From Bacteroidales bacterium (GTDB lineage: Bacteria > Bacteroidota > Bacteroidia > Bacteroidales > UBA932): 45,119 bases of DNA. Made by a program: the position numbers and the translations under genes. The notes under the pieces were generated by a model. It was not told the DNA's origin. It was given only the letters and a program-made list of their open reading frames with translations, and did not search any database. The stretch is taken from positions 1-45,119 of the forward strand of contig JAFYME010000011.1 in assembly GCA_017556765.1 (NCBI GenBank), written 5' to 3'. The stretch's first letter is position 1, and each line of letters starts with the position of its first letter. This document shows, one piece after another, positions 19,926 through 34,906 of the stretch.

Positions 19926-20019
19926 TAAATGGTGATATTGTTACAGGCGACATGCCACCCCGGCTAGGGGGTGCCTCCCACAGGGAGGCGGGGGTCGCCA
20001 GTAACAATATCACCATTTA
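19926..20019 (-). repeat. Nested palindrome A, downstream of rnfA
   Basis: Outer arms of 19 bp pair perfectly (19926-19944 with 20001-20019). After one A/A mismatch a further 6 bp pair (19946-19951 with 19994-19999). Inside are two hairpins: CACCCC/GGGGTG (19956-19961, 19968-19973) and CCTCCC/GGGAGG (19974-19979, 19983-19988). It starts 15 bases after the rnfA stop. No T run follows, so it is not a standard terminator. It shares its architecture with elements at 22824 and 34807. Confidence 0.85.
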
Positions 20020-20034
20020 TACTCTTATAAAGGA

Positions 20035-20634
20035 CTAAACCAGTCCCGAGAATCCCATGAACGCCATCGCAAGGATACCTGCGGTAACGAGTGCGATAGG
20101 AATGCCCTTGAACTCCTTAGGGACGTCGTTGAGAGCAAGCTGCTCGCGAAGACCTGCGAAAAGGACCATTGCAAGGCCGAAACCAAGCGATGTCGCGAAA
20201 GCATATACTGTAGCCTCACCGAGGTTCATCATGCCGTCAGCGGCCGCTGCAAAAGGAGATGTCTTCTGAACCACTGTCAAAGCGACACCGAGAACGGCGC
20301 AGTTTGTAGTGATGAGCGGAAGGAAGATACCGAGGGAAGCATACAGCGCAGGGCTGATCTTCTTGAGCACGATCTCCACCATCTGCACAAGGGCAGCGAT
20401 CACGAGGATGAACGAGATAGTCTGAAGGAACTCAAGTCCGAAGCTTACCAGAAGCGAGTTCAACAGGTAAGTCACAACTGTTGCAAGCGTGATCACGAAG
20501 CATACCGCCATAGACATACCGGTAGCTGTGCTGAGCTTGTTGGACACGCCGAGGAACGGGCATATACCAAGGAACTGTGACAGCAGGATATTGTTTACGA
20601 ATATCGCTGAAATGATGATAAGTATATATTCCAT
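20035..20634 (-). CDS. rnfA: Rnf complex subunit RnfA
   Basis: This 199-residue membrane protein has six hydrophobic helices. It is an RnfA/NqrE homologue (VNNILLSQFLGICPFLGVS, NCAVLGVAL, FALATSLGFGLA-type motifs). With RnfE it forms the inner-membrane core that binds a [2Fe-2S] cluster and couples electron flow from ferredoxin to NAD+ with Na+ or H+ export. It is the last gene of the operon, 2 bases after rnfE, and is followed by palindrome A. Confidence 0.95.
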   Translation of the reverse strand: MEYILIIISAIFVNNILLSQFLGICPFLGVSNKLSTATGMSMAVCFVITLATVVTYLLNSLLVSFGLEFLQTISFILVIAALVQMVEIVLKKISPALYASLGIFLPLITTNCAVLGVALTVVQKTSPFAAAADGMMNLGEATVYAFATSLGFGLAMVLFAGLREQLALNDVPKEFKGIPIALVTAGILAMAFMGFSGLV

Positions 20635-20636
20635 AA

Positions 20637-21242
20637 TTACTCAGCCTTTTTAGTTGTTAACTTTCTGAAGATCACGATAAGATATCCAAGCGCAAGGAAG
20701 GCTCCCGGCGCAAGCACGAATGCGAGGATACCGTCGCCCTGGATGAACTTGAATCCGAATGCAGAACCGCTTCCGAGGATCTCGCGTACAAGTCCGAGGA
20801 TTGTAAGAGAGCATGTGAAGCCGAGTCCGATACCGATACCGTCAAGGGCAGAATCGCCTACGCTGTTCTTGTTTGCAAACGCCTCTGCACGTCCGAGAAC
20901 GATACAGTTCACCACGATGAGCGGGATGAACAGACCGAGTGTCTCGTAGATATCCGGAACATAAGCCTGCATGATGAACTGGAGCAAGGTCACGAATGTA
21001 GCGATCACAACGATGTATGAAGGGATACGCACCTTGTCAGGGATATATGCAGCGATAGCTGAAATAACGATGTTCGAGAGAATGAGGACGAACGTAGTGG
21101 CAAGTCCCATGCTCATACCGTTGATGGCCGATGTGGTTGTGGCCAATGTAGGACACATACCCAGAAGGAGGACGAATGTAGGGTTCTCCTTGATGAGGCC
21201 TTTAGTTATAAGTTGAAATTTTCCCATTTTCTGTTCCTCCAT
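20637..21242 (-). CDS. rnfE: Rnf complex subunit RnfE
   Basis: This 201-residue, six-helix membrane protein is paralogous to RnfA (KENPTFVLLLGMCPTLATTTSA, FIPLIVVNCIVLGRAEAFA). The protein could start at the Met of MEEQKMGKF or of MGKFQLI. The ATG overlaps the last base of the rnfG stop region (21242), consistent with coupled translation. It is a core ion-translocating subunit. Confidence 0.95.
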   Translation of the reverse strand: MEEQKMGKFQLITKGLIKENPTFVLLLGMCPTLATTTSAINGMSMGLATTFVLILSNIVISAIAAYIPDKVRIPSYIVVIATFVTLLQFIMQAYVPDIYETLGLFIPLIVVNCIVLGRAEAFANKNSVGDSALDGIGIGLGFTCSLTILGLVREILGSGSAFGFKFIQGDGILAFVLAPGAFLALGYLIVIFRKLTTKKAE

Positions 21243-21826
21243 TATTCGTTAAGAAGCATTGGTGTCTGGCCGATAGCCTGGAAGACCTTTGTAGCAAGAA
21301 GAAGACCGTCTGCATAAGCTCTTGACGTGATTGTAGAAGCTGTGATAGCGTCCACATCACCACCGTCCTTCTTTACCGCGAGATCCTTTTCAGCAGGGTT
21401 CCAGCCCTTGAACTGATCTGAGAATGCAGGCTCCACGCACTTGGCTCCAAGACCTGGAGTCTCTGCCTGCGAGAGAACCTTTGTATTGCAGATGCATCCG
21501 TTCACATCGAAGCCGACCTTGATCACGATAGGGCCGCCGAAACCTACAGGAGCGACATTGATAGCGCATCCTACTGTGTTTCCGAGCTCGTCATATGCGA
21601 GGTTGTATGAGTATGATGCACCTTCGAAATCAACTGTCCTTTCCTCTTCGATTGTCACGGCAGTCTCAGGAAGAACCTCCTTGATAGCCGCCTCATTCTT
21701 TGCTGCCGCTGCCGCTGCAATCGGCTCAGCTGTAAGCGCATACACGCCTGCGAGAAGCGCCGAACATACCAGACAGATAGCGAGCAGGCAGAGGCTCATG
21801 TTCTTGAATGATGATTTTACTGCCAT
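21242..21826 (-). CDS. rnfG: Rnf complex subunit RnfG
   Basis: This 194-residue protein has one N-terminal membrane helix (LCLLAICLVCSALLAGVYAL) and a periplasmic FMN domain. The covalent flavin site is DAITASTITSRAYADG, where the second-last Thr of the ATS/T-type motif carries FMN through a phosphoester bond. The preceding GLGAKC segment is also conserved. It moves electrons between RnfD/RnfC and the membrane core. It starts 4 bases after rnfD. Confidence 0.95.
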   Translation of the reverse strand: MAVKSSFKNMSLCLLAICLVCSALLAGVYALTAEPIAAAAAAKNEAAIKEVLPETAVTIEEERTVDFEGASYSYNLAYDELGNTVGCAINVAPVGFGGPIVIKVGFDVNGCICNTKVLSQAETPGLGAKCVEPAFSDQFKGWNPAEKDLAVKKDGGDVDAITASTITSRAYADGLLLATKVFQAIGQTPMLLNE

Positions 21827-21829
21827 AGC

Positions 21830-22795
21830 TTATGCCCTCCCGTACTTTTTGGCATGGAACCACTTGTTGAGAAGAGGAACCACAGAGTTCATGATAAGGA
21901 TAGCGAATGACACACCCTCAGGATATGCGCCGAAGTAACGGATCAGCATTGTGATCACACCGATACCGATACCGAATACGATGCCTCCCATGTTGCTCAT
22001 AGGCGAAGTCACATAGTCGGTCGCCATGAAGATCGAACCGAGAAGGAGACCACCGGTGAGGAGGTTGAAGAGAGGATCTGTATACTCAGCAGGGTTGATG
22101 AGCCAGAAGATGCCTGAGAACACTGCTACAGTCGCGAGGATAGAGAGTGTGATGTAAGGTCTGATCACTCTGCGTGCAAGGAGATATACGAATCCTATGA
22201 TCAGGGCGATGGCAGAAAGCTCACCTGCAGAACCTCCGATGTTGTAGAAAAGCATGTCCATATAGTCAAGGCTCTCGATGGCTGCTACGCCGCCTTCCTT
22301 TGCAAGTCCGAGTGGAGTTGCTCCTGAAAGTGCGTCAAGACCGCCTCCGATGAAGCCCTGAGGTCTTGTCCAGTCTGTCATGTATGTAGGGAAAGAGATC
22401 AGAAGGAAGACACGACCTACGATTGCAGGGTTGAAGAGGTTCTGACCGAGACCTCCGAATGTCATCTTAGCGACTCCTACCGCTACGACAGCTCCGATGA
22501 ACACAACCCACCATGGAGTTGTAGCCGGAAGGTTGAGTGCGAGAAGAACACCGGTCACCACAGCGGAATAATCGCAGATAGTGCAAGGCTTCTTCAACAG
22601 ATATTTTGTGATAAGGTACTCCAGCAATACGCATGAAGCCACGCTCACTCCGAGGATAAGGAGCTCCGACCATCCATAGAAGAGGACAGAAACGAGAACC
22701 GCAGGGAGAAGAGCGATCACAACGTCACGCATCAAAGACTTCGTAGAGGTCTTTGTATGCAGATGCGGTGACGGTGAAACCAGTATTTTATCCAT
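21830..22795 (-). CDS. rnfD: Rnf complex subunit RnfD
   Basis: This 321-residue membrane protein has about nine helices. The motif DALSGATPLGLAKE holds the Thr for covalent FMN. The N-terminus, VSPSPHLHTKTSTKSLMRDV, and GLGQNLFNPAIVGRVFLL are typical. It is separated from rnfC by a 112-base gap filled by palindrome B, unlike all other junctions in the operon, which are 0-4 bases apart in this half. Confidence 0.95.
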   Translation of the reverse strand: MDKILVSPSPHLHTKTSTKSLMRDVVIALLPAVLVSVLFYGWSELLILGVSVASCVLLEYLITKYLLKKPCTICDYSAVVTGVLLALNLPATTPWWVVFIGAVVAVGVAKMTFGGLGQNLFNPAIVGRVFLLISFPTYMTDWTRPQGFIGGGLDALSGATPLGLAKEGGVAAIESLDYMDMLFYNIGGSAGELSAIALIIGFVYLLARRVIRPYITLSILATVAVFSGIFWLINPAEYTDPLFNLLTGGLLLGSIFMATDYVTSPMSNMGGIVFGIGIGVITMLIRYFGAYPEGVSFAILIMNSVVPLLNKWFHAKKYGRA

Positions 22796-22823
22796 TTTAT
22801 GCTTTTATTAGTTATCGATTTAT

Positions 22824-22927
22824 GAGGCAGGGGCAAAGGTAAAAACCGTGGCCGCCCATGGCCTCGTGAATGGGAGGGGCCCACCATAGGTGGGAGGGAT
22901 TTAGTTTTTACCTTTGTCCCCTGCCTC
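22824..22927 (-). repeat. Nested palindrome B, between rnfC and rnfD
   Basis: Outer arms of 23 paired bases (22824-22846 with 22904-22927; one bulged T at 22917) enclose two hairpins: CCCAT/ATGGG (22855-22859, 22870-22874) and CCCACC/GGTGGG (22880-22885, 22889-22894). The right arm covers the stop and last five codons of rnfC. On the minus strand the other arm contains TACCTTTG (22834-22841), a -7-like box 39 bases before rnfD. The core resembles element C when both are read in the sense direction (CCCTCCCAC, then GGGCCCCTCCC). Confidence 0.88.
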
Positions 22928-24269
22928 TTATAATCTTGATGACGTCGCCCTTGGCAAGACGGATGATGTCAAGGAGAGGAATGTTTGCAGGACAGCTGTA
23001 AAGGCAGCATCCGCACTCGATACAATCCTGTACCGCATTTTCCTCGAGTTCGTCCATCATATTGTTGCGAGCGTACTTGTTGAGAAGGAAAGGCTCGAGT
23101 CCCATAGGGCAAGCCTCTGCACATTTTCCGCAACGGATACATGCCGACTCAACACCACGTACAGTCTGCTCTGCAGTAAGATAAAGCAATGAAGATGAAC
23201 CCTTTACAGTAGTCGCATCCATATTTGCGATAGCCTTACCCATCATAGGACCTCCGCTGATGATCTTCGCAGCCTGCTCAGGAACGCCACCCGCATACTC
23301 TGCTATATAAGACAGAGGCATACCGATACGGAACTTGTAGTTGTGCTGCTTGTCCATAGGGAGGCAGTCGCCTGTGATTGTCATCACATTTGTCACAAGA
23401 GGCATGTTCTTCTGTACGGCCTCGTATACTGCGAGCGATGTTGCTACGTTCTGAACTACGGCTCCAACGTCGATAGGAAGGCCCATAGACTTCACCTGAC
23501 GGCCCATCACAGCGTCGATGAGCTGCTTCTCGCCACCCTGCGGATACTTCTTCTTGAGGGTCATCACAGAGATGCCGTCGTATCCCTTTGCGGTCTTCTG
23601 AAGCTCAGCCACTGCAGCTGTCATGGCAGCGATAGCCTCAGGCTTGTTCTCCTCGATACCGATCACTGTCTTGCATCCGCCGAGAACCTGCTTCATGATC
23701 GCAGCACCTACTACGATCTCCTTGCTTCTCTCGATCATGATGCGGTTGTCCGATGTGAGGTAAGGCTCACACTCGGCTCCGTTGAGGATGAGGCACTCAG
23801 CAACCTTTCCCGGAGGCGGGCAAAGCTTCACGTGTGCAGGGAAGGTAGCACCTCCGAGTCCTACGACACCGTTCAGCTTGATCTTCTCGAGAATGGCCTT
23901 GTTATCCTCCGGAATCTCTGTCACGAGAGTATCGGAAAGGTCGATGCCTTCAGCCCACTCGTCGCCCTCAACGTCGATCTCGATATGAGTCATGTTGTTG
24001 CCTGCCAGATCCTTGCGAGGTCCTACTGACTTCACGGTACCTGAAACAGACGAATGCACATATGCAGAAATGAATCCTGCCGGCTCAGCGATCACCTGTC
24101 CGGCCTTCACCTGGTCACCAGCCTTCACGATCGGAGTCGCAGGCGCGCCAAGATGCTGCGCTACAGAAATGAACACCTTGGAAGGAACAGGAAGGACCTC
24201 AATCTTGCAGTCCTTTGAAATCTTGCTGTCGCTTGGGTGGATACCACCGATTGAAAATGTCTTCATCAT
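22908..24269 (-). CDS. rnfC: Rnf complex subunit RnfC
   Basis: This 453-residue peripheral subunit binds NADH/FMN and two [4Fe-4S] clusters. The cluster motifs are CIRCGKCAEACP and CIECGCCLYSCP in the last 90 residues. The flavin/NAD region is VGLGGATFPAHVKL with ECEPYLTSDNR. It starts MMKTFSIGGIHP, so either Met could be used. The last residues, RGRGQR, are encoded by an arm of palindrome B, so the C-terminal tail may have been altered by that element. It starts 4 bases after rnfB. Confidence 0.95.
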   Translation of the reverse strand: MMKTFSIGGIHPSDSKISKDCKIEVLPVPSKVFISVAQHLGAPATPIVKAGDQVKAGQVIAEPAGFISAYVHSSVSGTVKSVGPRKDLAGNNMTHIEIDVEGDEWAEGIDLSDTLVTEIPEDNKAILEKIKLNGVVGLGGATFPAHVKLCPPPGKVAECLILNGAECEPYLTSDNRIMIERSKEIVVGAAIMKQVLGGCKTVIGIEENKPEAIAAMTAAVAELQKTAKGYDGISVMTLKKKYPQGGEKQLIDAVMGRQVKSMGLPIDVGAVVQNVATSLAVYEAVQKNMPLVTNVMTITGDCLPMDKQHNYKFRIGMPLSYIAEYAGGVPEQAAKIISGGPMMGKAIANMDATTVKGSSSLLYLTAEQTVRGVESACIRCGKCAEACPMGLEPFLLNKYARNNMMDELEENAVQDCIECGCCLYSCPANIPLLDIIRLAKGDVIKIIRGRGQR

Positions 24270-24273
24270 AGTC

Positions 24274-25155
24274 CTACTCCTCCTTTTTTACTGGTTCAGC
24301 CGGTGCCGGAGCAGCCTCTGGCTTAGGTTTGATTACCGGGAAGTTCACTGCATGGATAGCACCTGTAGGGCACTCAGCCACACACTTCTTGCAGAGCTTG
24401 CACTTTGTGAAATCGATGTAAGCCACGTTGTTCTCGACTGTGATAGCCTCGAACGGACATACCTTTGCGCACTTTCCGCAGCCGATACATGCTGCCTTGC
24501 AGGCCTTGCGAGCCACAGCTCCCTTGTCCTTGTTCACACATGAAACGAATACACGCATGTTCCTGCGTCCCTTGTTGCGGAGCTCGATGATGTTCTTAGG
24601 ACATGCCTTCACGCATGCGCCGCAGGCTGTACACTTCTCCTCGTCCACAACAGGAAGGCCTGTCGCAGGATCCATTGAGATAGCGCCGAACTGGCATGCA
24701 GACACGCAGTCGCCACATCCGAGGCATCCGAAAGAACAGCCTGTGTCACCGCTGTAGAGAGCGGCCTTCACACGGCATGACTGATATCCGCCGTACTCGT
24801 TTGTGCGAGGACGGTTCTCACATGTTCCGTTGCAGCGTACTACAGCGACCTGAGGCTCCTTTGCAGCAACCTCGACACCGAGAACAGCGGCAACCTTCTG
24901 CATACCTTCGTTACCTCCTACAGGACAGAAGCACTTGTCCAGATTTGGAGACGACTCGACGCAGAACTGAGCGAAGGCACGGCAGCCGGCCTGGCCACAT
25001 CCTCCGCAGTTAGCACCTGGCAATACCTTCTCGACCTCGTCGATCCTAGGGTCTTCCTCTACCTTGAACTTTTCAGCCACAACATAGAGAACCACCGCGA
25101 GAACCACACCAAGGACAGTGAGGATTGCAATAGTCCAGATAATAGTTAGTGTCAT
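24274..25155 (-). CDS. rnfB: Rnf complex subunit RnfB (ferredoxin-type)
   Basis: This 293-residue protein has an N-terminal membrane helix, then the Fe-S domain motif CGGCGQAGC, then several ferredoxin CxxCxxCxxxCP motifs (CTACGACVKACP, CIGCGKCAKVCP, CKLCKKCVAECP) and a Pro/Ala/Glu/Lys-rich tail. It takes electrons from reduced ferredoxin. It ends with TAG, one of several TAG stops in the window. Confidence 0.95.
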   Translation of the reverse strand: MTLTIIWTIAILTVLGVVLAVVLYVVAEKFKVEEDPRIDEVEKVLPGANCGGCGQAGCRAFAQFCVESSPNLDKCFCPVGGNEGMQKVAAVLGVEVAAKEPQVAVVRCNGTCENRPRTNEYGGYQSCRVKAALYSGDTGCSFGCLGCGDCVSACQFGAISMDPATGLPVVDEEKCTACGACVKACPKNIIELRNKGRRNMRVFVSCVNKDKGAVARKACKAACIGCGKCAKVCPFEAITVENNVAYIDFTKCKLCKKCVAECPTGAIHAVNFPVIKPKPEAAPAPAEPVKKEE

Positions 25156-25168
25156 TACAGCTATAATT

Positions 25169-25585
25169 TTAGTTTATATAGAATTCGAACTGATCCGACA
25201 GTTTCTCACGAAACAGCCAGATGATGAAATAATATACTCCGACTCCCGCTATTGCAACTCCTCCCCTGAGGAATTCATTGTCAATAACAAACGACAAAGA
25301 TAATATTAAAATCATTAAAATCGCCAATGGAATGACATAAGATATCCATACCGCTTTCAAGCCCATGGACATTTTTGTCTTCACCTGCACTATGTCGCCG
25401 ACTGCACGGACAGTATACGGATCCGTCGGCACCATTATCACCTTTTCCTGCTCCTCCGACATGCCGCAGAGGCCCTTTGCATGACACTCCGAACAAGCCG
25501 AAGAAACCATGATCTCGACTGTCGTGAAATCCTGGTCTATATGAACCACCTTTCCGGAATGCACTATTTCATTCTTCTTTGCCAT
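25169..25585 (-). CDS. RseC-family (SoxR-reducing system) membrane protein
   Basis: The start at 25585 gives MAKKNEIVHSGKVVHID; the frame to 25609 adds 8 poorly conserved residues. The 138-residue protein has a small N-terminal domain with the Cys motif CSECHAKGLCGM, two membrane helices (VWISYVIPLAILMILILSL and VAIAGVGVYYFIIWLF) and a short tail. RseC-like proteins occur next to rnf genes in many bacteria and help reduce or insert clusters. It heads the rnf operon, 13 bases before rnfB. Confidence 0.88.
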   Translation of the reverse strand: MAKKNEIVHSGKVVHIDQDFTTVEIMVSSACSECHAKGLCGMSEEQEKVIMVPTDPYTVRAVGDIVQVKTKMSMGLKAVWISYVIPLAILMILILSLSFVIDNEFLRGGVAIAGVGVYYFIIWLFREKLSDQFEFYIN

Positions 25586-25589
25586 ATAT

Positions 25590-26468
25590 CTATTTTCTTT
25601 TCGTTTCAACCAATGATGTGAAAGGATGCTTGAGCCCCTCGTATCCGGTCAGCCTTCCGCTCGCAAAACCCACAAGCAGAGGAGCTTCAAAATACACGGG
25701 AAGCCTGTTTTCATCATCTGTAACCCATATCATCATATCCTCCTCACCCTTGAAGATCTCTCCTTCGAGCAGCTTGGCGGCAAACTTTATCGTCTTGACC
25801 GAGCCCAGTCCCTTGACTTTTATCGTCTCCCTGCCATACAGGATGAAGTACACATTGTAGACGTCATCGTCAATGGCAAAGGTCATCGGATATTTCCTGC
25901 CTGGCTGCACCTTGTCAAAATCCATGTTCCTCGCATAGAAGAACAGGGCAGGGATATCAAATGTACACGGAGTCAGCGGCAGCTGCAGATTTCTCTGTCC
26001 GCTGCTGGTCGAATACACATCCGCAACTATGCACGGATCGGGCTGAGACCAGTCATAAGCATATGTGTTCCTTGCCTCATAGCCGCCTTCATGAGTATCC
26101 CTGGTAAACTTCAGAGGCTTCAGGCCGTCTCTTGTAAACCACGACTTGAAGTCTTCCCTCACCTTGAAGAAAAGGTCGAAGAGCTTTGTCGTCCTGCCAT
26201 GGGCCCGGCACAAGAAAGCCTCATGGCCGTTCAGGCGGACGGAATCCAGACTCACTGTCGCAGTACCGACATCAGAATTGATCGCGCCCCATTTATAATG
26301 CAGGGAGAAATGCATCCTCTCCCCCGCCTTGAAGGCAAGTTCGCTCTCCTTTACAGTCCTCACCGGGATGCATGAGGTACCCTTCAAATCAGAATTCTCC
26401 TGTGCATGCAGCGGGAATGCCGCCAGGCATGTACACAGGAGAAATATGATCTTGATGAGTGATTTCAT
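25590..26468 (-). CDS. DUF3108 family secreted protein
   Basis: This 292-residue protein has signal peptide MKSLIKIIFLLCTCLAAFPLHAQ. It then has the DUF3108 pattern: AFKAGERMHFSLHYKWGAIN, DVGTATVSLD, an LFFKVREDFKSWFTRDGLKP block, and a last WVTDDENRLPVYFEAPLLVG. It is a periplasmic beta-sandwich protein of unknown role, common in Bacteroidota. It ends with TAG 5 bases before the RseC-like start, so it may be co-transcribed with the rnf genes. DnaB lies 23 bases upstream. Confidence 0.85.
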   Translation of the reverse strand: MKSLIKIIFLLCTCLAAFPLHAQENSDLKGTSCIPVRTVKESELAFKAGERMHFSLHYKWGAINSDVGTATVSLDSVRLNGHEAFLCRAHGRTTKLFDLFFKVREDFKSWFTRDGLKPLKFTRDTHEGGYEARNTYAYDWSQPDPCIVADVYSTSSGQRNLQLPLTPCTFDIPALFFYARNMDFDKVQPGRKYPMTFAIDDDVYNVYFILYGRETIKVKGLGSVKTIKFAAKLLEGEIFKGEEDMMIWVTDDENRLPVYFEAPLLVGFASGRLTGYEGLKHPFTSLVETKRK

Positions 26469-26491
26469 GGAAAGGAACTTTATGCCGTCTC

Positions 26492-28021
26492 CTACATGAA
26501 GTCGTCATTCATGCCGAATTCATTGGCCGGCATATTCGGCATCGGATCCGGGCCGAACGGAGGGAAATCGTCATTCATGGCCGACGCAACCGGCATCATA
26601 TCTGCCTGATTGACAAGGCTTTCCTGTTCGTCCACGAAGCGTACCTCATCATGACGGAATCTCATGTCGATATCCGCAATCGAACCGTTTCTGTGCTTTG
26701 CGATGATGATCTGTGTCCTACCCACATCGTCAGGATTGTCAGAAAGTCCCTGATAGTCATAACGATGGATGAAGATCACCATATCGGCATCCTGCTCGAT
26801 TGATCCCGACTCACGGAGGTCACTCAGCTGCGGACGGCGGTTGCTTCCCTGACGGTTCTCCGACTGACGGGAGAGCTGTGAAAGAGCGATGATAGGCACA
26901 TTCATCTCCTTTGCCGTAGCCTTGAGCGTACGGGAAATCGCCGCAACTTCCTGCTCACGCATACCTCTCAGCTCCGCAGGACCCTGCATGAGCTGAAGGT
27001 AGTCGACCACGATCAGGCGCACACCTTTCTGCTTTACAAGCTTCTTGACCTTTGAACGGAACTCCATCACAGGAAGGGACGGAGTGTCATCTATATATAT
27101 AGGTGCTTTCGAAAGTCTCTTGAGCTGGATATCCAGCTGCTGCCACTCCCAGTCCTGAAGCTTCACACCTCCCTTGATCTTGTCGGCGCTGAGCTTGGTC
27201 TCGGACACCATCATACGGTTCGCGAGCTGCTTTGCGGGCATCTCAAGAGAGAAAATCGCTACAGGCATATTGAAATCGACGGCCGCATTACGGGCCACAT
27301 TGACCACGAATGCAGTCTTACCGACTGAAGGACGGGCCGCAAGGATGATGAGGTCCGAAGCCTGCCATCCGAGGGTGATCTTGTCCAATGAAGGGAATCC
27401 GGACGGAACGCCGCTGAGGCCGTTTGAATCCTGACGTTTCTGAAGGTCTTCCAAGGCATCGTTGATGACCTTTCCGATCTCCTGCACATCCTTCTTCACA
27501 TTGTTCTGGATCGCCGCGAAGAGCTTTGTCTGAGCGGTATCGATCAGGTCATCGACGTTTACCGACTCATCGTATGAAGTCTTGAGGATATCGTACGAGG
27601 CCGTAATGAGCTCTCTCTGAATACATTTCTGCTTGAGTATCCTTATGTAATACTCAATATGCGCCGCGGCTCCGATCTTCTGGGACAGCTGAGCAAGGGT
27701 TATGGTACCACCTACAGCCTCAAGGTTTCCCTGAGACTTCAGCTTCTGTGATACAGACAACAGGTCGAGGGCGACGTGCTCATTGTTCAGCGAGCTCATC
27801 GCCTCGAAAATCATCCTGTGCTTTTCGCTATAGAAGCAGCTTGGAGACAGCTCATCCATAGCTTCGTCCACACAGTGCGGTTCGATCAGAAGCGCTCCGA
27901 GGACAGCCTCTTCGACGTCAAGAGCTTGAGGCGGAATATTTCCCATCTCAAGCCCAAGCGTATCTAAGTTGACTGACGGATTTCTCCTTCTGACTGAACG
28001 TTTCTTTCCCTCTTCAGCCAT
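26492..28021 (-). CDS. dnaB: Replicative DNA helicase DnaB
   Basis: This 509-residue hexameric helicase opens the replication fork. The N-terminal domain (about 30-140, PPQALDVEEAVLGALLIE) is followed by the RecA-type domain. Walker A is ARPSVGKTAF, Walker B is LIVVDYLQLMQG, and motifs QLSRQSENR and DLRESGSIEQDADMV are present. The Met/Asp/Pro-rich C-terminal tail is typical of Bacteroidota members. No intein is present. Confidence 0.97.
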   Translation of the reverse strand: MAEEGKKRSVRRRNPSVNLDTLGLEMGNIPPQALDVEEAVLGALLIEPHCVDEAMDELSPSCFYSEKHRMIFEAMSSLNNEHVALDLLSVSQKLKSQGNLEAVGGTITLAQLSQKIGAAAHIEYYIRILKQKCIQRELITASYDILKTSYDESVNVDDLIDTAQTKLFAAIQNNVKKDVQEIGKVINDALEDLQKRQDSNGLSGVPSGFPSLDKITLGWQASDLIILAARPSVGKTAFVVNVARNAAVDFNMPVAIFSLEMPAKQLANRMMVSETKLSADKIKGGVKLQDWEWQQLDIQLKRLSKAPIYIDDTPSLPVMEFRSKVKKLVKQKGVRLIVVDYLQLMQGPAELRGMREQEVAAISRTLKATAKEMNVPIIALSQLSRQSENRQGSNRRPQLSDLRESGSIEQDADMVIFIHRYDYQGLSDNPDDVGRTQIIIAKHRNGSIADIDMRFRHDEVRFVDEQESLVNQADMMPVASAMNDDFPPFGPDPMPNMPANEFGMNDDFM

Positions 28022-28031
28022 AAGTCAGTTT

Positions 28032-28841
28032 TTATTCGAAATCAGGATTTACGAGGATCCTGCCGCAGTATTCGCAGATGATCATCTTCTTGTTAGAAGC
28101 GATGTCGATAAGTCTCTGAGGAGCGATTGTATTGAAACATCCGCCGCATGAGTCACCGTTGAATACAGAAACAACAGCAAGGTGATTGTTGCAGCTCTGT
28201 CTGATATGATCATATGCGCTCATTGTTCTCTCGTCGATCTTAGCCGCGCATGCGTCTCTGTCCGCGCAGAGTCTCTCCTCCTCCTTTGAAGTAGACTCGA
28301 CGATTGTCGCGAGTTCCTGCTTCTTGGCCTTGAGGTCCTCTGTTCTTACAGCGATCTTCTCCTTCACAACCTCGAGGTCGTTCTTCTTGTCGAAGATACG
28401 CTCCTTTGCCTCTGAGATATGCTTCTCTGCAATCTGTCTGAGGAGTCCCTGGTTCTCGATCTCCTTGTTCAGAGAGTCGTACTCACGGCTGTTCGCAACG
28501 TTCTCAAGCTGAGATCTGTACTTCTCGATCTGAGCGTCACACTCTGTGATTCCGAGCTTGTTCTCAGTGATGAACTTGCCGTACTCGTCGATCATCTCTG
28601 CAAGACGGGTCGACTTTGCCTTGAGCTCTGCAATCTCTGCCTCAAGAGCCTCCACTTCCATCGGAAGCTCACCTCTGAGCTGGAGGATCTTGTCGATCGC
28701 TGTGTCAGCCTGCTGGAGAGCATACAGTGTCTGGAGCTTCTCGCCGACGCTAAGGTCAGAATCCGCGAAGCTCTTCTGAATGGATACGAAGGTCTCCCTC
28801 TGGTCGATAGGAGTTTCGATTTTCTTAGTCTTTTTAGCCAT
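28032..28841 (-). CDS. Coiled-coil C4-type zinc-ribbon protein
   Basis: This 269-residue protein has a long coiled coil (about residues 20-200, rich in Lys, Glu and Leu) and a C-terminal zinc ribbon with CGGC and CEYCG. It is a homologue of the widespread YbgI-neighbour/CT398-type zinc-ribbon proteins, which in other phyla bind secretion or transport partners; the role here is unknown. It lies 5 bases after the Nif3-like gene, a pairing seen in many bacteria. Confidence 0.9.
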   Translation of the reverse strand: MAKKTKKIETPIDQRETFVSIQKSFADSDLSVGEKLQTLYALQQADTAIDKILQLRGELPMEVEALEAEIAELKAKSTRLAEMIDEYGKFITENKLGITECDAQIEKYRSQLENVANSREYDSLNKEIENQGLLRQIAEKHISEAKERIFDKKNDLEVVKEKIAVRTEDLKAKKQELATIVESTSKEEERLCADRDACAAKIDERTMSAYDHIRQSCNNHLAVVSVFNGDSCGGCFNTIAPQRLIDIASNKKMIICEYCGRILVNPDFE

Positions 28842-28846
28842 ATCGC

Positions 28847-29623
28847 TTAAAAATAAAATATCGGGTTACTATATATATTCTGAGTAATGCGAACCGCAAA
28901 GGTAGGAAAATTTTTCTTTATCAAAGAAAATAAAATGTCAACTATCTCTATTTCACTCTCGTAATGGCCTATATCCATGATCATGAAGCCTTCACGGGTG
29001 AAGAAATTATGGTATGAGATGTCTCCGCTTATATAAAGCTGAGCGCCGGATTTCATCGCCGTGCCAATGAGTGAACCGCCTGATCCACCGCACATTGCGA
29101 CGCGGCTGATCTTTCCGTCCACAGGCTTTGACGCTCTCATGGCCTTGAGTCCGAAGCTCTTCTTCACGAGTTTGACGGCCTCTTCTGCTGACAACGGCTC
29201 AGGCAGGTTTCCTACCACTCCCAGTCCTGTGCCTTCGCCATCCTCATCAAGTATCTGTACATCTTCAAGTCCCAGCCTTGCCGCCATGGCCCCGCTCACA
29301 CCTGCAATCACCTTGTCGGCGCTTGTATGGGCCGCATATATGCTGATGCCCGCCTTTATCGCCTTGATGACAGCCTCTCCGACAGGATTGTCCGGAGATA
29401 TCTTCTTGAGTCCGGAGAAGATGAGCGGATGATGGGTCACGATCATGTCCGCGCCGCATGCGATCGCCTCATCCACAAGCACAGGCGTGCAGTCGAGTCC
29501 GAGAAGCACAGACGAAACCACGTCTTCAGGAGAGCCTATGCACAGACCGCTGTTGTCCCATCCTTCCTGAAGCGAAAGCGGAGCGAATTCCTCGATTACC
29601 CTTATTATATCCTTTACTTTCAT
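28847..29623 (-). CDS. Nif3-like dinuclear metal center protein (GTP cyclohydrolase I type 2-like)
   Basis: This 258-residue protein has metal ligands visible in VTHHPLIFSG, AAHTSADKV and DIGHYESE. The usual AAHTNLD is AAHTSAD here. It lacks the central CutA1-like insertion of the long form. The biochemical role is unsettled. Its start overlaps the MerR gene stop by 4 bases. Confidence 0.92.
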   Translation of the reverse strand: MKVKDIIRVIEEFAPLSLQEGWDNSGLCIGSPEDVVSSVLLGLDCTPVLVDEAIACGADMIVTHHPLIFSGLKKISPDNPVGEAVIKAIKAGISIYAAHTSADKVIAGVSGAMAARLGLEDVQILDEDGEGTGLGVVGNLPEPLSAEEAVKLVKKSFGLKAMRASKPVDGKISRVAMCGGSGGSLIGTAMKSGAQLYISGDISYHNFFTREGFMIMDIGHYESEIEIVDILFSLIKKNFPTFAVRITQNIYSNPIFYF

Positions 29624-29937
29624 AGTTCTTCACGGATCTCTGAAAGCTGCTGGCGGATAGCCTTGAGGGACTCCAGCACGCGAGCCTTGTTTATGACTTC
29701 CTTCCTGTCTCCCTTGAGTCTCTTGGCCGCTCCTTCAAGAGTCAGACCTTCGACCTTAACGAGCACATGGATATGCTTGAATGTCTCCACATCCTCCTTG
29801 GTGAAGAGACGGTTGCCCTTGGCGTTTCTCTGAGGCTTGATGAATTTAGGGAATTCATTGGCCCAGAAACGCACCAGGGATGTGTTTTCTCCAAGGATTT
29901 CGGCTACTTCGCCGATGGTGTACAAATATTTTTCCAT
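29620..29937 (-). CDS. MerR family transcriptional regulator
   Basis: The start at 29937 gives MEKYLYTIGEVAEILGENTS; the longer frame to 29964 adds MKDLLKEDI, encoded by a dispersed repeat, and is rejected. The 105-residue protein is a winged-helix MerR DNA-binding domain (SLVRFWANEFPKFIKPQRN, KGNRLFTKEDVETFKHIH) with a short helix after it and no effector domain. This short form is common in Bacteroidota. Its target is unknown. Confidence 0.9.
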   Translation of the reverse strand: MEKYLYTIGEVAEILGENTSLVRFWANEFPKFIKPQRNAKGNRLFTKEDVETFKHIHVLVKVEGLTLEGAAKRLKGDRKEVINKARVLESLKAIRQQLSEIREEL

Positions 29938-29946
29938 TATATCTTC

Positions 29947-30036
29947 TTTTAAAAGATCCTTCACTTCGTTCAGGATGACAGTGTCAGGTTCTATGTTCAG
30001 GATGACAGTGTCGGGTTTCGTGTCTTGGATGACATG
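29947..30036. repeat. Dispersed repeat copy 2 with short tandem units
   Basis: AAAAGATCCTTCACTTCG, then TTCAGGATGACAGTGTC twice (about 29968-29984 and 29996-30012), then a diverged TTGGATGACATGTC. It resembles 19779-19812. It fills the space between the MerR start and the stop of the M23 peptidase upstream. Confidence 0.6.
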
Positions 30037-30039
30037 TCA

Positions 30040-30987
30040 TCAATCCAACGACTGGCCTGTCGAGACGGACATCACCAGCATGCTCACGTATTCCTCCGGC
30101 GTCACCGACGCAAAGAGGTGATTCACCGGATCCAGAACCACCGAATCACGCAGCACCTCGTAATGCAGATGCGGAGCGAATGAATTTCCCGAAACGCCCA
30201 CATATCCCAGACGGGTGCCGCGGCGCACCTTGCGTCCCTTTACGGCCTCCATGTCCGCAAGATGGGCATACCTTGTGAAATATCCGTTTCCATGGTCAAT
30301 CACGACCTGGTTGCCAAGGCCCTTGCGGGAGCGGATGACCTCGCTTATCGTTCCGTCCGCGGCAGCAAAAACCGGCTCGCCGGCAGGCGCGATGATATCC
30401 AGTCCGTTATGCTTTATGCTTACCTTGTAGAAAGGGTTTATCTTATCACCCACGGACGCGCCCGTCTGGGCAAAAGAGAACTTCTCCACAGGCTTGTGCA
30501 TAGGCGGCATCACGAAACCGCTGTCCACGATCATTTCCATGACTCTTGCAAAATTCGTCTCCACAGTACTGGCCGACTCCTCGACATGCTCAAGCTTCCT
30601 TTCCGTATAACTCACGATATCCGTATCTGGAATGGAATCAATTCCCATGAGGAAATCCACTGACGACAACGGGTCCATGCTCGGGGCCGAGGTATGGAAT
30701 ATCTCCTCATATATGCGGTCATCCTTAAGCCTGAGGCCTTCCACGACATCAGCCAGCAGTTCCTCCTTGCGCTCCAGTTCCGGAAGTTCGCGGGCATACA
30801 TCCTGTTTTCGTTCTTCAGACGCTGTTCTGTATCAGTGCTGAACACAAGCGCGAATATAAGATAGTAAACAACTGCAAGAGAAACGGTTACAACAAAGAA
30901 CATCAGCACCTTACGCACATAATGCCATGCTGATTTCTTCGCTTTCCTGAACCTGAAGCCGTCCTTATCGTATTCGTACTGACTCAT
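30040..30987 (-). CDS. M23 peptidase with membrane anchor (first of a pair)
   Basis: This 315-residue inner-membrane protein has one helix at about 30-50 (VLMFFVVTVSLAVVYYLIFA), a periplasmic coiled coil (about 55-80), and a LytM domain with HNGLDI and HLHYE (H..D and HxH zinc ligands). It probably cuts or regulates peptidoglycan hydrolysis during growth or division. It is a paralogue of the gene upstream, which overlaps it by 4 bases (30984-30987). Confidence 0.92.
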   Translation of the reverse strand: MSQYEYDKDGFRFRKAKKSAWHYVRKVLMFFVVTVSLAVVYYLIFALVFSTDTEQRLKNENRMYARELPELERKEELLADVVEGLRLKDDRIYEEIFHTSAPSMDPLSSVDFLMGIDSIPDTDIVSYTERKLEHVEESASTVETNFARVMEMIVDSGFVMPPMHKPVEKFSFAQTGASVGDKINPFYKVSIKHNGLDIIAPAGEPVFAAADGTISEVIRSRKGLGNQVVIDHGNGYFTRYAHLADMEAVKGRKVRRGTRLGYVGVSGNSFAPHLHYEVLRDSVVLDPVNHLFASVTPEEYVSMLVMSVSTGQSLD

Positions 30988-32006
30988 GACCTGCGGTTTT
31001 CCCTTCTTTTATGAGACGGATGGAGAGTGATGTTCTTCGACGCATCCGCCGTGTTCTGCACCATTACAGAATACTCCTCCGGAGTGATAGATAGATCATA
31101 ATAATTGGCCGGATTCACATGGTTGCCCTTGTAAATCACTTCATAATGGAGGTGCGGTCCGGACGATTTTCCCGAATTTCCGGTCTGTCCTACACACTCT
31201 CCCCTCTTTATCTTCATGCCCTCAACGACGCCTACCGCCTTGAGATGGGCATATCTTGTCTTGTATCCGAATCCATGGTCTATCACGACCTGGTTGCCGT
31301 ATCCGAAGAACTCGAACTTGACGCTTTCCACGACTCCGTCGCCTGTCGCATAGACAGGGTTGCCTGGCTTCATGGCAAAATCCACACCGGTATGACGGGC
31401 CGTACGGCCATTGATCGGGTCTTTTCTGTAACCGAAGCCGCTGGAGAGCCTGTACCTTGACGGATCAGGATTTATCGGCGGGATGGCCGGTATGCATACC
31501 GCCATGTCGCCCGCCCTCTTTGAAAGAAGCGCGACCTCGTCGAAAGAACGGCTCTGCACGTAGGTCTTCTTAGTAAGCACATCCAGCCTTATCGCAGTCG
31601 ACTTGAGAAGCCCGTCAGGGTCAATGTCATCATAATGTGCATATCGGTTCACTCCTCCGAATCCGGCGTTCCTCACTTCAGACGGGATCTCGTTCATACC
31701 GAAGATGGAACGATAGATACCGTCATCCCTCATCTGAAGCGACGAAAGGGCCTCTTCATATGAATCCAGCTGCCTGTTCAGGACCTCTACCTTCGAGCAC
31801 CACTCCGCATTCTGCTTTTTCAGAAGCGCCGTCTTCGGAAGTTCCAGATCAAGCACGAACACATATATCCAGAAGTAAATAACCGCCATCACAACGCTTA
31901 CCACCAGCATCAGCAGCGGACCGAACACACGTGACATTCTGGAACGCTTTGTCACTTCGTACATGAGCGTTCTAGGGTTGAATGTATATTTCTTGTTATC
32001 GGACAT
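30984..32006 (-). CDS. M23 peptidase with membrane anchor (second of a pair)
   Basis: The chosen ATG at 32006 gives MSDNKKYTFNPRTLMYEVTK; a TTG at 32015 would add three residues. The 340-residue protein has a membrane helix (VFGPLLMLVVSVVMAVIYFW), a coiled coil, and a LytM domain with HTGVDF and HLHYE, ending in a basic tail. The Tyr-Gly-Asn-Gln-Val-Val-Ile-Asp-His block is shared with the paralogue. A minus-strand -7 box TATCTTTG lies at 32013-32020, only a few bases before the ATG, so the mRNA may be nearly leaderless. Confidence 0.92.
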   Translation of the reverse strand: MSDNKKYTFNPRTLMYEVTKRSRMSRVFGPLLMLVVSVVMAVIYFWIYVFVLDLELPKTALLKKQNAEWCSKVEVLNRQLDSYEEALSSLQMRDDGIYRSIFGMNEIPSEVRNAGFGGVNRYAHYDDIDPDGLLKSTAIRLDVLTKKTYVQSRSFDEVALLSKRAGDMAVCIPAIPPINPDPSRYRLSSGFGYRKDPINGRTARHTGVDFAMKPGNPVYATGDGVVESVKFEFFGYGNQVVIDHGFGYKTRYAHLKAVGVVEGMKIKRGECVGQTGNSGKSSGPHLHYEVIYKGNHVNPANYYDLSITPEEYSVMVQNTADASKNITLHPSHKRRENRRS

Positions 32007-32012
32007 ATCGGG

Positions 32013-32020
32013 CAAAGATA
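32013..32020 (-). promoter_or_regulatory. -7 box for the M23 gene pair
   Basis: TATCTTTG on the minus strand, only 6 bases before the ATG at 32006. If real, it implies a leader of almost zero length. Confidence 0.4.
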
Positions 32021-32114
32021 ACGAAAATCTCTCACACTTCTATAAAAAATAATATTTTTTAAAGTAAGGTCATAGAAAACAAGGATTAGTATGGGCTTTT
32101 AAGGAAAAAATATG

Positions 32115-32122
32115 TATTTTTG
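32115..32122 (+). promoter_or_regulatory. -7 box of alaS
   Basis: TATTTTTG fits TAnnTTTG, 62 bases before the alaS ATG at 32185. No clear -33 box. Confidence 0.5.
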
Positions 32123-32184
32123 CGAGTTATTTTGCCGTACTGCGTATGAGCGGCAACCGATAAGAAGATAAAACTGAAATACAT

Positions 32185-34800
32185 ATGACTTCAAAAGAGA
32201 TCAGAAAGGCCTTCCTGGACTTCTTTGCGTCCAAGGGCCACCAGATTGTGCCTTCGGCACCTATGGTCGTAAAGAACGACCCGACACTCATGTTCACCAA
32301 CGCCGGAATGAACCAGTTCAAGGATTGGTTCCTCGGCAACAGCCCTGCAAAATGGAAGAGGGTTGCCGACAGCCAGAAGTGCCTTCGCGTGAGCGGAAAG
32401 CATAATGACCTCGAGGAGGTAGGACGTGACACATACCACCACACAATGTTCGAGATGCTCGGAAACTGGAGCTTCGGCGACTACTTCAAGGACGAAGCAA
32501 TCGACTGGGCATGGGAGCTCCTCACAGAGGTATACAAGCTTGACAAGGACAGACTCTACGCAACTGTGTTCGAGGGTTCTGAGGCTGACGGCACAAAGCT
32601 CGACGTAGAGGCTATGGAGGCATGGAAGAGACATCTTCCTGAGGACAGGATCCTCCTCGGAAACAAGAAGGACAATTTCTGGGAAATGGGCGATACAGGT
32701 CCATGCGGTCCATGTTCGGAGATCCACATCGACCTCCGTTCAGACGAGGAGAGAGCTGCCGTACCGGGCGCATCGCTCGTGAACAAGGACCACCACCTCG
32801 TGATCGAGATCTGGAACAACGTGTTCATGCAGTACAACCGCAAGGCAAACGGCGAGCTTGAGCTCCTTCCTAACAAGAACGTGGATACAGGTATGGGATT
32901 CGAGCGCCTCTGCATGGCTCTCCAGGGCAAGAAGTCAAACTATGACACAGACGTGTTCACAGGCATGATCGCTAAGATCGAGGAGCTTTCAGGACACAAG
33001 TACGGCGTTACGACAGAGGAGGATGTTGCCATGCGAGTTATCGCTGACCACATCCGCGCGATCAGCTTCTCTATCGCTGACGGCCAGCTTCCTTCAAACG
33101 TGAAGGCAGGATATGTGATCCGCCGAATCCTCCGCCGTGCGGTACGTTACGGATACACATTCCTCGGCTTCAACGAGCCGTTCATCTGCCGTCTTGTACA
33201 GCAGCTCGTGGACGACATGGGAGAGTTCTACCCAGAGATCGTGAAGCAGCAGACTCTTATCGAGCGTGTCATCAAGGAAGAGGAGATGGCTTTCCTCCGC
33301 ACTCTTGACAGAGGTATCCGTCTGATGGACAACATCATGGCGAAGTCAGCCGAGACAAAGGTGATTTCCGGCGAGGACGCATTCGTGCTCTATGACACAT
33401 TCGGATTCCCTATCGACCTTTCAGAGCTCATCGCTTCGGAGAAGGGCTACAAGATCGACCTCGAGGGCTTCCAGGTGGAGCTCCAGAAGCAGAAGGACAG
33501 AGCGCGTAACGCCACAGCCATCGAGTCAGGAGACTGGGTTGAGTTCGCTCACTGCGACAACATCGAGTTCTGCGGATACGACCAGACTGAGCTCGAAGGC
33601 GTACAGCTCACACGTCACCGTACCGTGAAGGCAAAGAACAAGACAATGTACCAGCTCGTGTTCGAGCGCACACCGTTCTACGCTGAGATGGGTGGACAGG
33701 TAGGAGATACAGGATACATCCTTTCAGAGAGCGGCGAGAAGATCCAGATCGTAAATACAATCAAGGAGAACAACCTCACCATCCATGTTGCAGAGCGCAT
33801 CCCTGCAGACTGTACAGAGAGCTTCAGCCTCCATGTGGATGCAGAGCGCAGACTCCAGATCGAGAACAACCATACAGCGACTCACCTCCTCCACCAGGCT
33901 CTCCGCGAGATCCTCGGAACACATGTGGAGCAGAAGGGTTCATATGTATGCGACAAATACTTCCGCTTCGACTTCTCGCATTTCGAGAAGCTCAGCGAGG
34001 AGCAGGCAAAGCAGGTAGAGAGCCGCGTGAACGAGCTCATCAGAGCCAACAACCCGCTCGACGAGAACCGCAACGCTACTATGGAGCAGGCTCAGGAGAT
34101 GGGTGCAATGGCACTCTTCGGAGAGAAGTACGGCGACACAGTGCGTGTGATCAAGTTCGGTGATTCATGTGAGCTCTGCGGTGGTACCCATGCTGCAGCG
34201 ACAGGCCAGATCGGTTTCTTCAGAATCGTTTCAGAGTCTGCGATCGCTGCCGGAGTACGTCGTATCGAGGCTACAACCGGAGTAAGCGCCGAGGCTCTTG
34301 TAGACGAGATGGCTGAGACAATCCGCACTGCAAAGGCATTCTTCAACAACGTTCCTGACCTTGCGGGAGCGATCAGAAAGATGGTAGAGGAGAACGAGGC
34401 GTACAAGAAGCAGATGGAGGAGATCGCAAAGGAGAAGACCCTCGCCCTCAAGGCTGAGCTCAAGACAATGGCCAAGGAGGTAAACGGCATCAACATCGTT
34501 GTGATCGATACTCCGATGGATCCTGTAATGCTCAAGAATGCAGCGTTCATGCTCCAGAAGGAGGCTCAGAACCTTGCCATTGCAGCCGCATTCGAGGCAG
34601 CTGGCAAGCCACAGCTCCTTCTCATGTATACAGAGGATCTTGTAAAGGCAGGTCATAACGCAGGCGCTGACGTACGTGAGGCCGCAAAGCTCATCATGGG
34701 CGGCGGTGGCGGACAGCCAGGTCTTGCGACAGCCGGTGGAAAGAACCTTGAAGGTCTTTCTGAGGCGTTGACCAAGATGTCAGAACTCGCTACACGCTAA
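32185..34800 (+). CDS. alaS: Alanyl-tRNA synthetase
   Basis: This 871-residue class II synthetase charges tRNA-Ala. In order: catalytic core ([40 protein letters not shown]), tRNA recognition region, editing domain with HTATHLL and zinc ligands CELCGGTH, and the C-terminal oligomer/DHHA1-like part ending with the glycine loop [15 protein letters not shown]. Length and motifs are normal. It is followed by palindrome C and then the LptG-Fmt gene. Confidence 0.98.
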
Positions 34801-34806
34801 TAATAC

Positions 34807-34906
34807 GGATAGACTGTTGTCTCCATTGGCCCCCTCCCACTCTGCGAGCGGGCCCCTCCCCCTACCCGGGGGTGGGAAAATGCCAATTCCGACAATCAGT
34901 CTACCC
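34807..34906 (+). repeat. Nested palindrome C, between alaS and the lptG-fmt gene
   Basis: Outer arms: GG (34807-34808), TAGACTG (34810-34816), TTGTC (34817-34821) and ATTGGC (34825-34830) pair with GCCAAT (34882-34887), GACAA (34891-34895), CAGTCTA (34897-34903) and CC (34905-34906), with a bulge at 34896 and a 3x3 internal loop. Inner hairpins: CCC-CTC/GAG-GGG-type (34836-34852) and one in 34858-34876 that pairs either CCCCC with GGGGG or CCC-ACC with GGT-GGG. It begins 6 bases after the alaS stop. No T run follows. Confidence 0.82.

Follow-up and report, generated by a model that had tools for sequence, protein, structure and literature searches.

REP/BIME elements are small structured repeats that occur in many copies, with the REP flanking its cognate RAYT gene, and miniature inverted-repeat transposable elements (MITEs) carry conserved terminal inverted repeats with a target-site duplication; integron attC sites, which were also considered, have conserved R'/R'' core sites with an IntI close by. 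The subject of this report is a structured repeat of Bacteroidales, represented by three palindromes (elements A, B and C) in a stretch of 45,119 nucleotides from a Bacteroidales bacterium (GenBank assembly GCA_017556765.1, contig JAFYME010000011.1; the whole stretch is hereafter the window). These palindromes belong to a large dispersed family, whose members are best read, with a probability of roughly 0.65, as non-autonomous mobile palindromes with arms that are site-specific and matched via template switching, and with the folding of one strand under selection.

According to the excerpts consulted, the Rickettsia palindromic elements (RPEs) are dispersed palindromic repeats of about 150 bp, often placed in frame in unrelated genes (PMC10969869, PMC6649704), which encode a conserved peptide (PMC10969869) and lose repeat identity over time (PMC6649704). 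Measured against those descriptions, the Bacteroidales element is likewise a palindromic repeat found in frame inside unrelated genes, but its arms are mostly matched and site-specific and may hold inverted host sequence, and it has a pseudoknotted core and no conserved peptide; in its way of working it is like an RPE, but we do not file it as a member. The coding palindromes of nematomorph mitochondria, for which template switching has been proposed, are also long inverted repeats in genes with matched arms (PMC6649704, in excerpt); this much they have in common with the Bacteroidales element, from which they differ in being mitochondrial and in that the excerpt mentions no common mobile core. 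Template switching between inverted repeats is marked, in the parts of the published accounts consulted, by arm homogenisation and spacer inversion (PMC8604942, PMC8794818). The element resembles such quasipalindrome mutations in both marks, including in coding DNA, but template switching is a process and not an element, and would act here on many copies of one mobile core. A search of the open-licence PMC literature, judged from titles and the starts of abstracts, returned no description of the family.

Dispersal of the core family

Screening with the pattern CCCTCCC-N(4-34)-GGGCCCCTCCC recovered the core motif in 74 of the 101 genomes screened from the genus of the window (its own included), in up to 37 copies, and the reversed pattern used as a control gave none; the same core is found at several sites of one genome with different arms. 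A covariance model was built from 24 copies, picked out of 45 drawn from 198 distinct copies, and in the genome of the window (58% complete) it finds eight places at E<0.01, plus a weaker place of the A subtype at E 0.47. The preliminary description of this DNA had foreseen many copies with aligning cores, and these exist throughout much of the genus and patchily elsewhere in the order, where a longer pattern hit 5 of 295 genomes sampled across it (one from the genus of the window and the rest from four further genera, three of which belong to other families). A scan of named genomes yielded at least 119 stretches, and among the 80 matches listed 77 are from Bacteroidota, mostly gut or rumen metagenome-assembled genomes of Bacteroidales, including Candidatus Cryptobacteroides and Coprenecus, so that the genus of the window is probably Cryptobacteroides. 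The other three, GC-rich matches in Proteobacteria (L213, L220, L269), are probably due to chance; they were kept among the 198 copies and, flanks permitting, among the 185 used below for the arms, and were excluded, together with viral hits, from the comparison of strand stability and from the choice of the 24 model sequences. Five hits lie on viral contigs, and two of these (L312, L315) are alike in both flanks. Autonomous relatives, in which a gene would separate the two core halves, were looked for in a sample biased towards element loci, and the outcome was a single orphan half located where a stretch ends.

Within the window, the existence of three palindromes with long arms that differ by site, as first described, is confirmed by the complementarity of the arms (Table 1) and by folding z-scores of -8.7 (A), -7.3 (B) and -4.5 (C), with 0 of 200 shuffles equally stable; by eye, the outer arms of the three have no sequence in common. 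The likeness claimed for the cores holds for B and C, which score 73.1 and 49.1 bits with the model, and is remote for A, which scores 11.8 bits (E 0.3 in the window) and was not recovered by the model search of its own genome at E<=1. The core of A is only distantly related to those of B and C and constitutes a subtype, of which we found one further copy in the same genome (L370) and, in three relatives, copies at the corresponding gene end. The two side-by-side hairpins first recognized in the core are indeed present, with a pseudoknot in addition to them. In an Rfam search of the window the only match at a gathering score was a tRNA outside the elements; C gave no match up to E 1, and a copy in an RNase R gene gave two, both far below the gathering scores.

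Structure of the core and the strand that folds

The core is about 40-70 nt long and comprises two hairpins and a pseudoknot, the whole being enclosed by the long arms. On the folding strand a typical core begins with the hairpin GCC-RCCCNN-GGC, followed by AGGGGCCC, a variable hairpin (hp3) and GGGAGGG, and the loop of the initial hairpin pairs with an N'N'GGG shortly downstream to form the pseudoknot. Here the two bases after CCC meet the two before GGG in the loop of the second hairpin, and the two pairs are of the Watson-Crick type in 191 and 188 of the 198 distinct copies, with the combinations TC/GA (87 copies), GT/AC (59), AT/AT (17), CC/GG (11) and GC/GC (7). The 24-sequence alignment has 98.3% of its cells paired, as opposed to 32-60% when the partners are slid, and 47 double-changed cells as opposed to 13.4 in shuffles. 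On the strand used by the preliminary description, the first pair of hp3 is A-T in 104 copies, A-C in 76, G-C in 5 and G-T in none, with five other kinds occurring once each; since the closing pair is A-C but never G-T on that strand, it forms a standard or wobble pair on the other. The better-folding strand is the opposite of the one on which the element was first read.

Arms and their origin at orthologous sites

At least 19 pairs form outside the core in 66 of 67 copies (median 35), whereas a 3' flank borrowed from another copy gives a median of 7 (maximum 39). Full flanks are available for 185 of the 198 copies; in these the median length of the arm alignment is 27 nt, at 92% complementarity, and in 167 the arms score above the 95th percentile of swapped-flank controls. 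The element is like MITEs in being short and dispersed, with no transposase of its own seen, and unlike them in that the arms are mostly not common to the copies: 158 of the 185 have no 14-mer in common with the arms of another copy, and 27 do. The exception is the G064 subfamily, in which the same long arms recur at 8 of 10 copies (one of the others is cut by a contig end and one has another 3' arm), so that arms can travel with the unit.

At the end of rnfC, 20 of 21 loci gave an answer (window included), 5 with B, one (G007) with a different palindrome and 14 with neither; element B is orthologous in G021, G025, G065, G031 and L290. Its 5' arm encodes ..IIRGRGQR*, and B-free relatives end in ..IIRGR.. 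(L115, L118) or ..IIRTRK (L117). From these endings, and from AGAGGCAGGG at this place in L118, it follows that the 3' arm of B is the copy and the 5' arm the native sequence, and by eye the empty rnfC sites hold the native 5' side only. In G031 the rnfC codons read ATTATTCG and the 3' side CGAATAAT, and the other carriers of B differ at both places. A comparable situation is seen in a gene for an FAD protein, where GGAAAT stands beside the native 3' flank in G057 and G008 (the native 5' flank having ATTTCC) and GAGATG in G015 (native CATCTC). Copying from the 3' flank is also suggested, less securely than at these two genes, at the gene for a THUMP-like protein (L046) and at site C.

By eye, paired arms are absent from the empty sites at rnfC, alaS, the end of a VWA-domain gene (L002), aroK, the RNase R gene and the FAD-protein gene. 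Downstream of alaS, 19 relatives have no core in the next 600 nt, and the twentieth ends before the junction. The site of A after rnfA is occupied in G000, G021, G031 and L290, with arms that are unrelated between them but self-matching; rewriting and separate insertion would look alike in these sequences, and either may have produced the differences.

Concerted changes in the arms

Arm pairs at the aroK site were compared between genomes: G025 and G065 have 24 pairs unchanged and one compensated, and G025 and G007 have 17 unchanged, 7 compensated, one unaligned and none uncompensated. When 16 overlapping ortholog pairs chosen by hand are taken together (14 of 36 in-register pairs and the two from aroK), 360 pairs are the same, 26 are compensated, 30 were already unpaired and 6 are unaligned. 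Opposite orientation between orthologous sites was found for one loop and one core: the hp3 loop at aroK reads GAA in one and TTC in the other of G025 and G065, and the whole core is inverted between G057 and G008 with the arms collinear (score 83 inverted versus 30.5 direct). Arm homogenisation and spacer inversion are thus both seen here, in comparisons of a small number of orthologous sites. In G065 the variable hairpin appears to have been lost by deletion between the two CCCTCCC repeats.

In-frame copies within genes

Seventeen open reading frames (ORFs), picked as long open frames, hold 18 copies, 13 in sense and 5 in antisense orientation; for 13 of the 18, it is the strand antisense to the host gene that folds more strongly. 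Pfam families were found for all 17, some subfamily names being our own assignments: shikimate kinase, RibF, AtpG, HI0933, TldD, DnaX (two loci), RlmI-like methyltransferase, SpoU methylase, RNase R, tyrosine recombinase, aminotransferase-like (GcvP), THUMP-like, MiaB-like, YgiQ-like, RsmF and UvrD. The element thereby supplies in-frame insertions to core proteins of gut bacteria, such as DnaX, RNase R, AroK and AtpG. A single dnaX frame of G064 (L057) holds two oppositely oriented copies.

Three genes were compared one by one with empty relatives included. The gaps measure 15-144 nt at the 10 loci of RNase R and 18-195 nt at aroK, where 14 of 15 loci gave an answer and 6 have an element or remnant; for the FAD-protein gene 21 of 22 loci gave an answer, representing 15 genomes, of which 4 are carriers and 11 are empty at 27-45 nt. 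All the gaps measured in these genes, occupied or empty, are multiples of 3. No conserved encoded peptide was seen, the subtypes being read, by eye, in at least three frames with unrelated peptides.

Mechanism and alternative explanations

We propose that the core lands between genes and, in frame and without stops, within conserved proteins, and that its strong hairpin lets DNA polymerase switch templates between the arms. Such a switch would copy one arm onto the other, giving compensated changes, would add an inverted copy of adjoining host sequence to the palindrome, and might sometimes invert the loop or the entire core, with the net outcome that the arms turn site-specific yet remain matched. 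Template switching would then be the cause of the matching of the arms; the unit itself presumably travels in the form of a folded single strand or of RNA, moved by an enzyme acting in trans, and selection on the folded strand would most simply serve this movement. The direct observations to which the proposal speaks are the family itself and the structure of its core, sites with and without the element, insertions in frame, inverted copies of flanks, compensated changes, and one loop and one core oriented oppositely between orthologous sites. With one core set between many different arms, the family supplies natural replicates for measurements, in bacteria, of template switching, of compensatory evolution and of the growth of palindromes.

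A number of observations weigh against this proposal. Arm pairing is no better than in the swapped-flank control in 18 of the 185 copies; the 16 ortholog pairs also contain 41 uncompensated single changes (6 G-U, 7 A-C and 28 other) and 7 unpaired double changes, arising partly from indels; the flank copy in the FAD-protein gene is absent from one of the four carriers (G096); and the arms in RNase R look wholly inserted. Independent insertions could also account for opposite orientation, or for different arms, at one site; the arm changes are read from comparisons between genomes; and no transposase was identified for the element. Further, isolated arm mismatches on the sense strand comprise 57 A-C, 16 G-U and 44 transversions (57 vs 16, p 1.5e-6), and folding energies make the complement more stable in 166 of 180 copies as against 157 of 348 control flanks. 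From the wobble bias and these energies it follows that the G-rich strand folds best; template switching alone would not lead one to expect such wobble asymmetry and one-strand stability, which point to the folded strand being under selection.

The same asymmetries, together with the 76 A-C and absent G-T closing pairs of hp3 and the covariation of the pseudoknot, favor an explanation by selection for structure alone, under which the copies would be kept folding as RNA or single-stranded DNA, with roles in transposition, mRNA stability or antisense control, and the arms would covary by ordinary compensatory mutation. This we regard as unlikely, given that it leaves the arms that copy host codons, the inverted loop and the inverted core unexplained, and that the copies sit in unrelated genes in both orientations with no obvious common function. 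The strong selection for an RNA structure suggested in the preliminary description is to this extent retained: covariation and wobble bias show that the folded strand matters, albeit the opposite one, and they fit RNA and single-stranded DNA indistinguishably. The family cautions that near-perfect covariation of a stem need not imply selection on RNA alone. The inverted copying of the flank, suggested in the same place, has fared better, with support from rnfC and the FAD-protein gene and hints at two more sites. Its other suggestion, that a core went into the tip of a hairpin already present, would account for arms that differ by site around a common core, but the empty orthologous sites, which by eye lack paired arms at all six sites compared, contradict it, and we reject it as scarcely credible. 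Bidirectional terminators or mRNA-stabilizing hairpins would suit the position of A, B and C at gene ends, but this explanation is very improbable in view of the many copies within ORFs and the prevalence there of the stronger fold on the antisense strand; intrinsic terminators in particular are rejected, as they had been at the outset, by the lack of a T run after A, B or C by eye. Nor does the sense position after a stop codon, initially given for all three elements, survive as a rule, since numerous copies are found within genes, in either orientation, and the 5' arm of B itself contains the last codons and stop of rnfC. Compared with the proposed template switching at a mobile core, a further and more doubtful possibility is that the element carries nothing but the folded, pseudoknotted core and builds terminal inverted repeats from host sequence, the folded strand priming the copying of the flank back on itself at insertion, which would give each copy arms of its own, and a dedicated enzyme recognizing the structure and not an end sequence.

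Candidate movers

Movement in trans by a RAYT (Y1 transposase), as for a REP-like element, concerns the mover and is compatible with the reading that we prefer; we consider it a tentative candidate. Y1_Tnp (RAYT-like) hits are present in 78 of the 101 genomes, one to seven each, and the RAYT loci fetched are L322-L361. Among the 74 element-positive genomes 66 have a Y1_Tnp hit, and among the 27 element-free ones 12 (odds ratio 10.3, p 8.9e-6, uncorrected for kinship); for genomes at least 90% complete the counts are 35 of 38 and 3 of 9. The identity of three hit-free genomes was obtained by elimination. This association may be phylogenetic in origin. As a small structured repeat in many copies, with Y1 enzymes in most carrier genomes, the element is like REP/BIMEs with their RAYT, but it is unlike them in that the arms are mostly not common to copies, that copies lie inside genes, and that 39 of 40 hand-picked RAYT loci have no core nearby (the remaining one has it within 700 bp). 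Many of the roughly 30 RAYT loci read by eye are flanked by other, distinct REP-like hairpins. As the cognate enzyme, RAYT was set aside despite the genome-level association, the core lying near it at one of the 40 loci fetched. The reverse transcriptase family RVT_1 has no association with the element (25 of 74 against 7 of 27 genomes).

Elements of the window and other palindromes

Table 1. Palindromic elements A, B and C of the window and the genes beside them
Feature	Position	Strand	Details
Element A, divergent subtype	19926..20019	-	After rnfA
Element A arms	19926-19951 / 19994-20019		26 nt, 96% complementary
Element A core	19947-19996	+	Weak model match
rnfA	20035-20634	-
Element B	22821..22930	-	Between rnfC and rnfD; core 22844-22901, folded strand +
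Element B outer arms	22821-22845 / 22906-22930		76% complementary
Element B inner arms	22830-22846 / 22904-22920		94% complementary
Element B 5' arm (gene direction)	22904..22930	-	Last codons and stop codon of rnfC; native sequence
Element B 3' arm	22821..22846	-	Inverted copy of rnfC end
rnfC	22908-24269	-	End and stop lie within 5' arm of B
alaS	32185-34800		Upstream of C
Element C	34806..34906	+	Between alaS and LptF/G-like + fmt fusion gene; core 34829-34883, folded strand -; pairing spans about 34806 to 34906
LptF/G-like + fmt fusion gene	34918-37386		Downstream of C

In the fusion gene downstream of C an LptF/LptG-like permease and a methionyl-tRNA formyltransferase are joined in a single reading frame.

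Palindromes of other kinds occupy some of the sites compared. G007 has a different palindrome at two of them, the rnfC end and the position after the VWA-domain gene; this second kind (L115/L086 and L373) has a common loop AGARAAATAAGGGAAA between arms that are not the same at both sites. A third family stands at the rnfA end in L121 and L123 (with a remnant in L125 by eye), its arms being site-specific and its core similar to TTCTGCGTTATGCTTG...GCAAGCCTTGAAAATCC. After alaS, the same two loci (with a variant in L125 by eye) have another structured-looking repeat, GACTTGTGCCGGAAACCGGCAGTTATAAGGCCGTCAAGGA.

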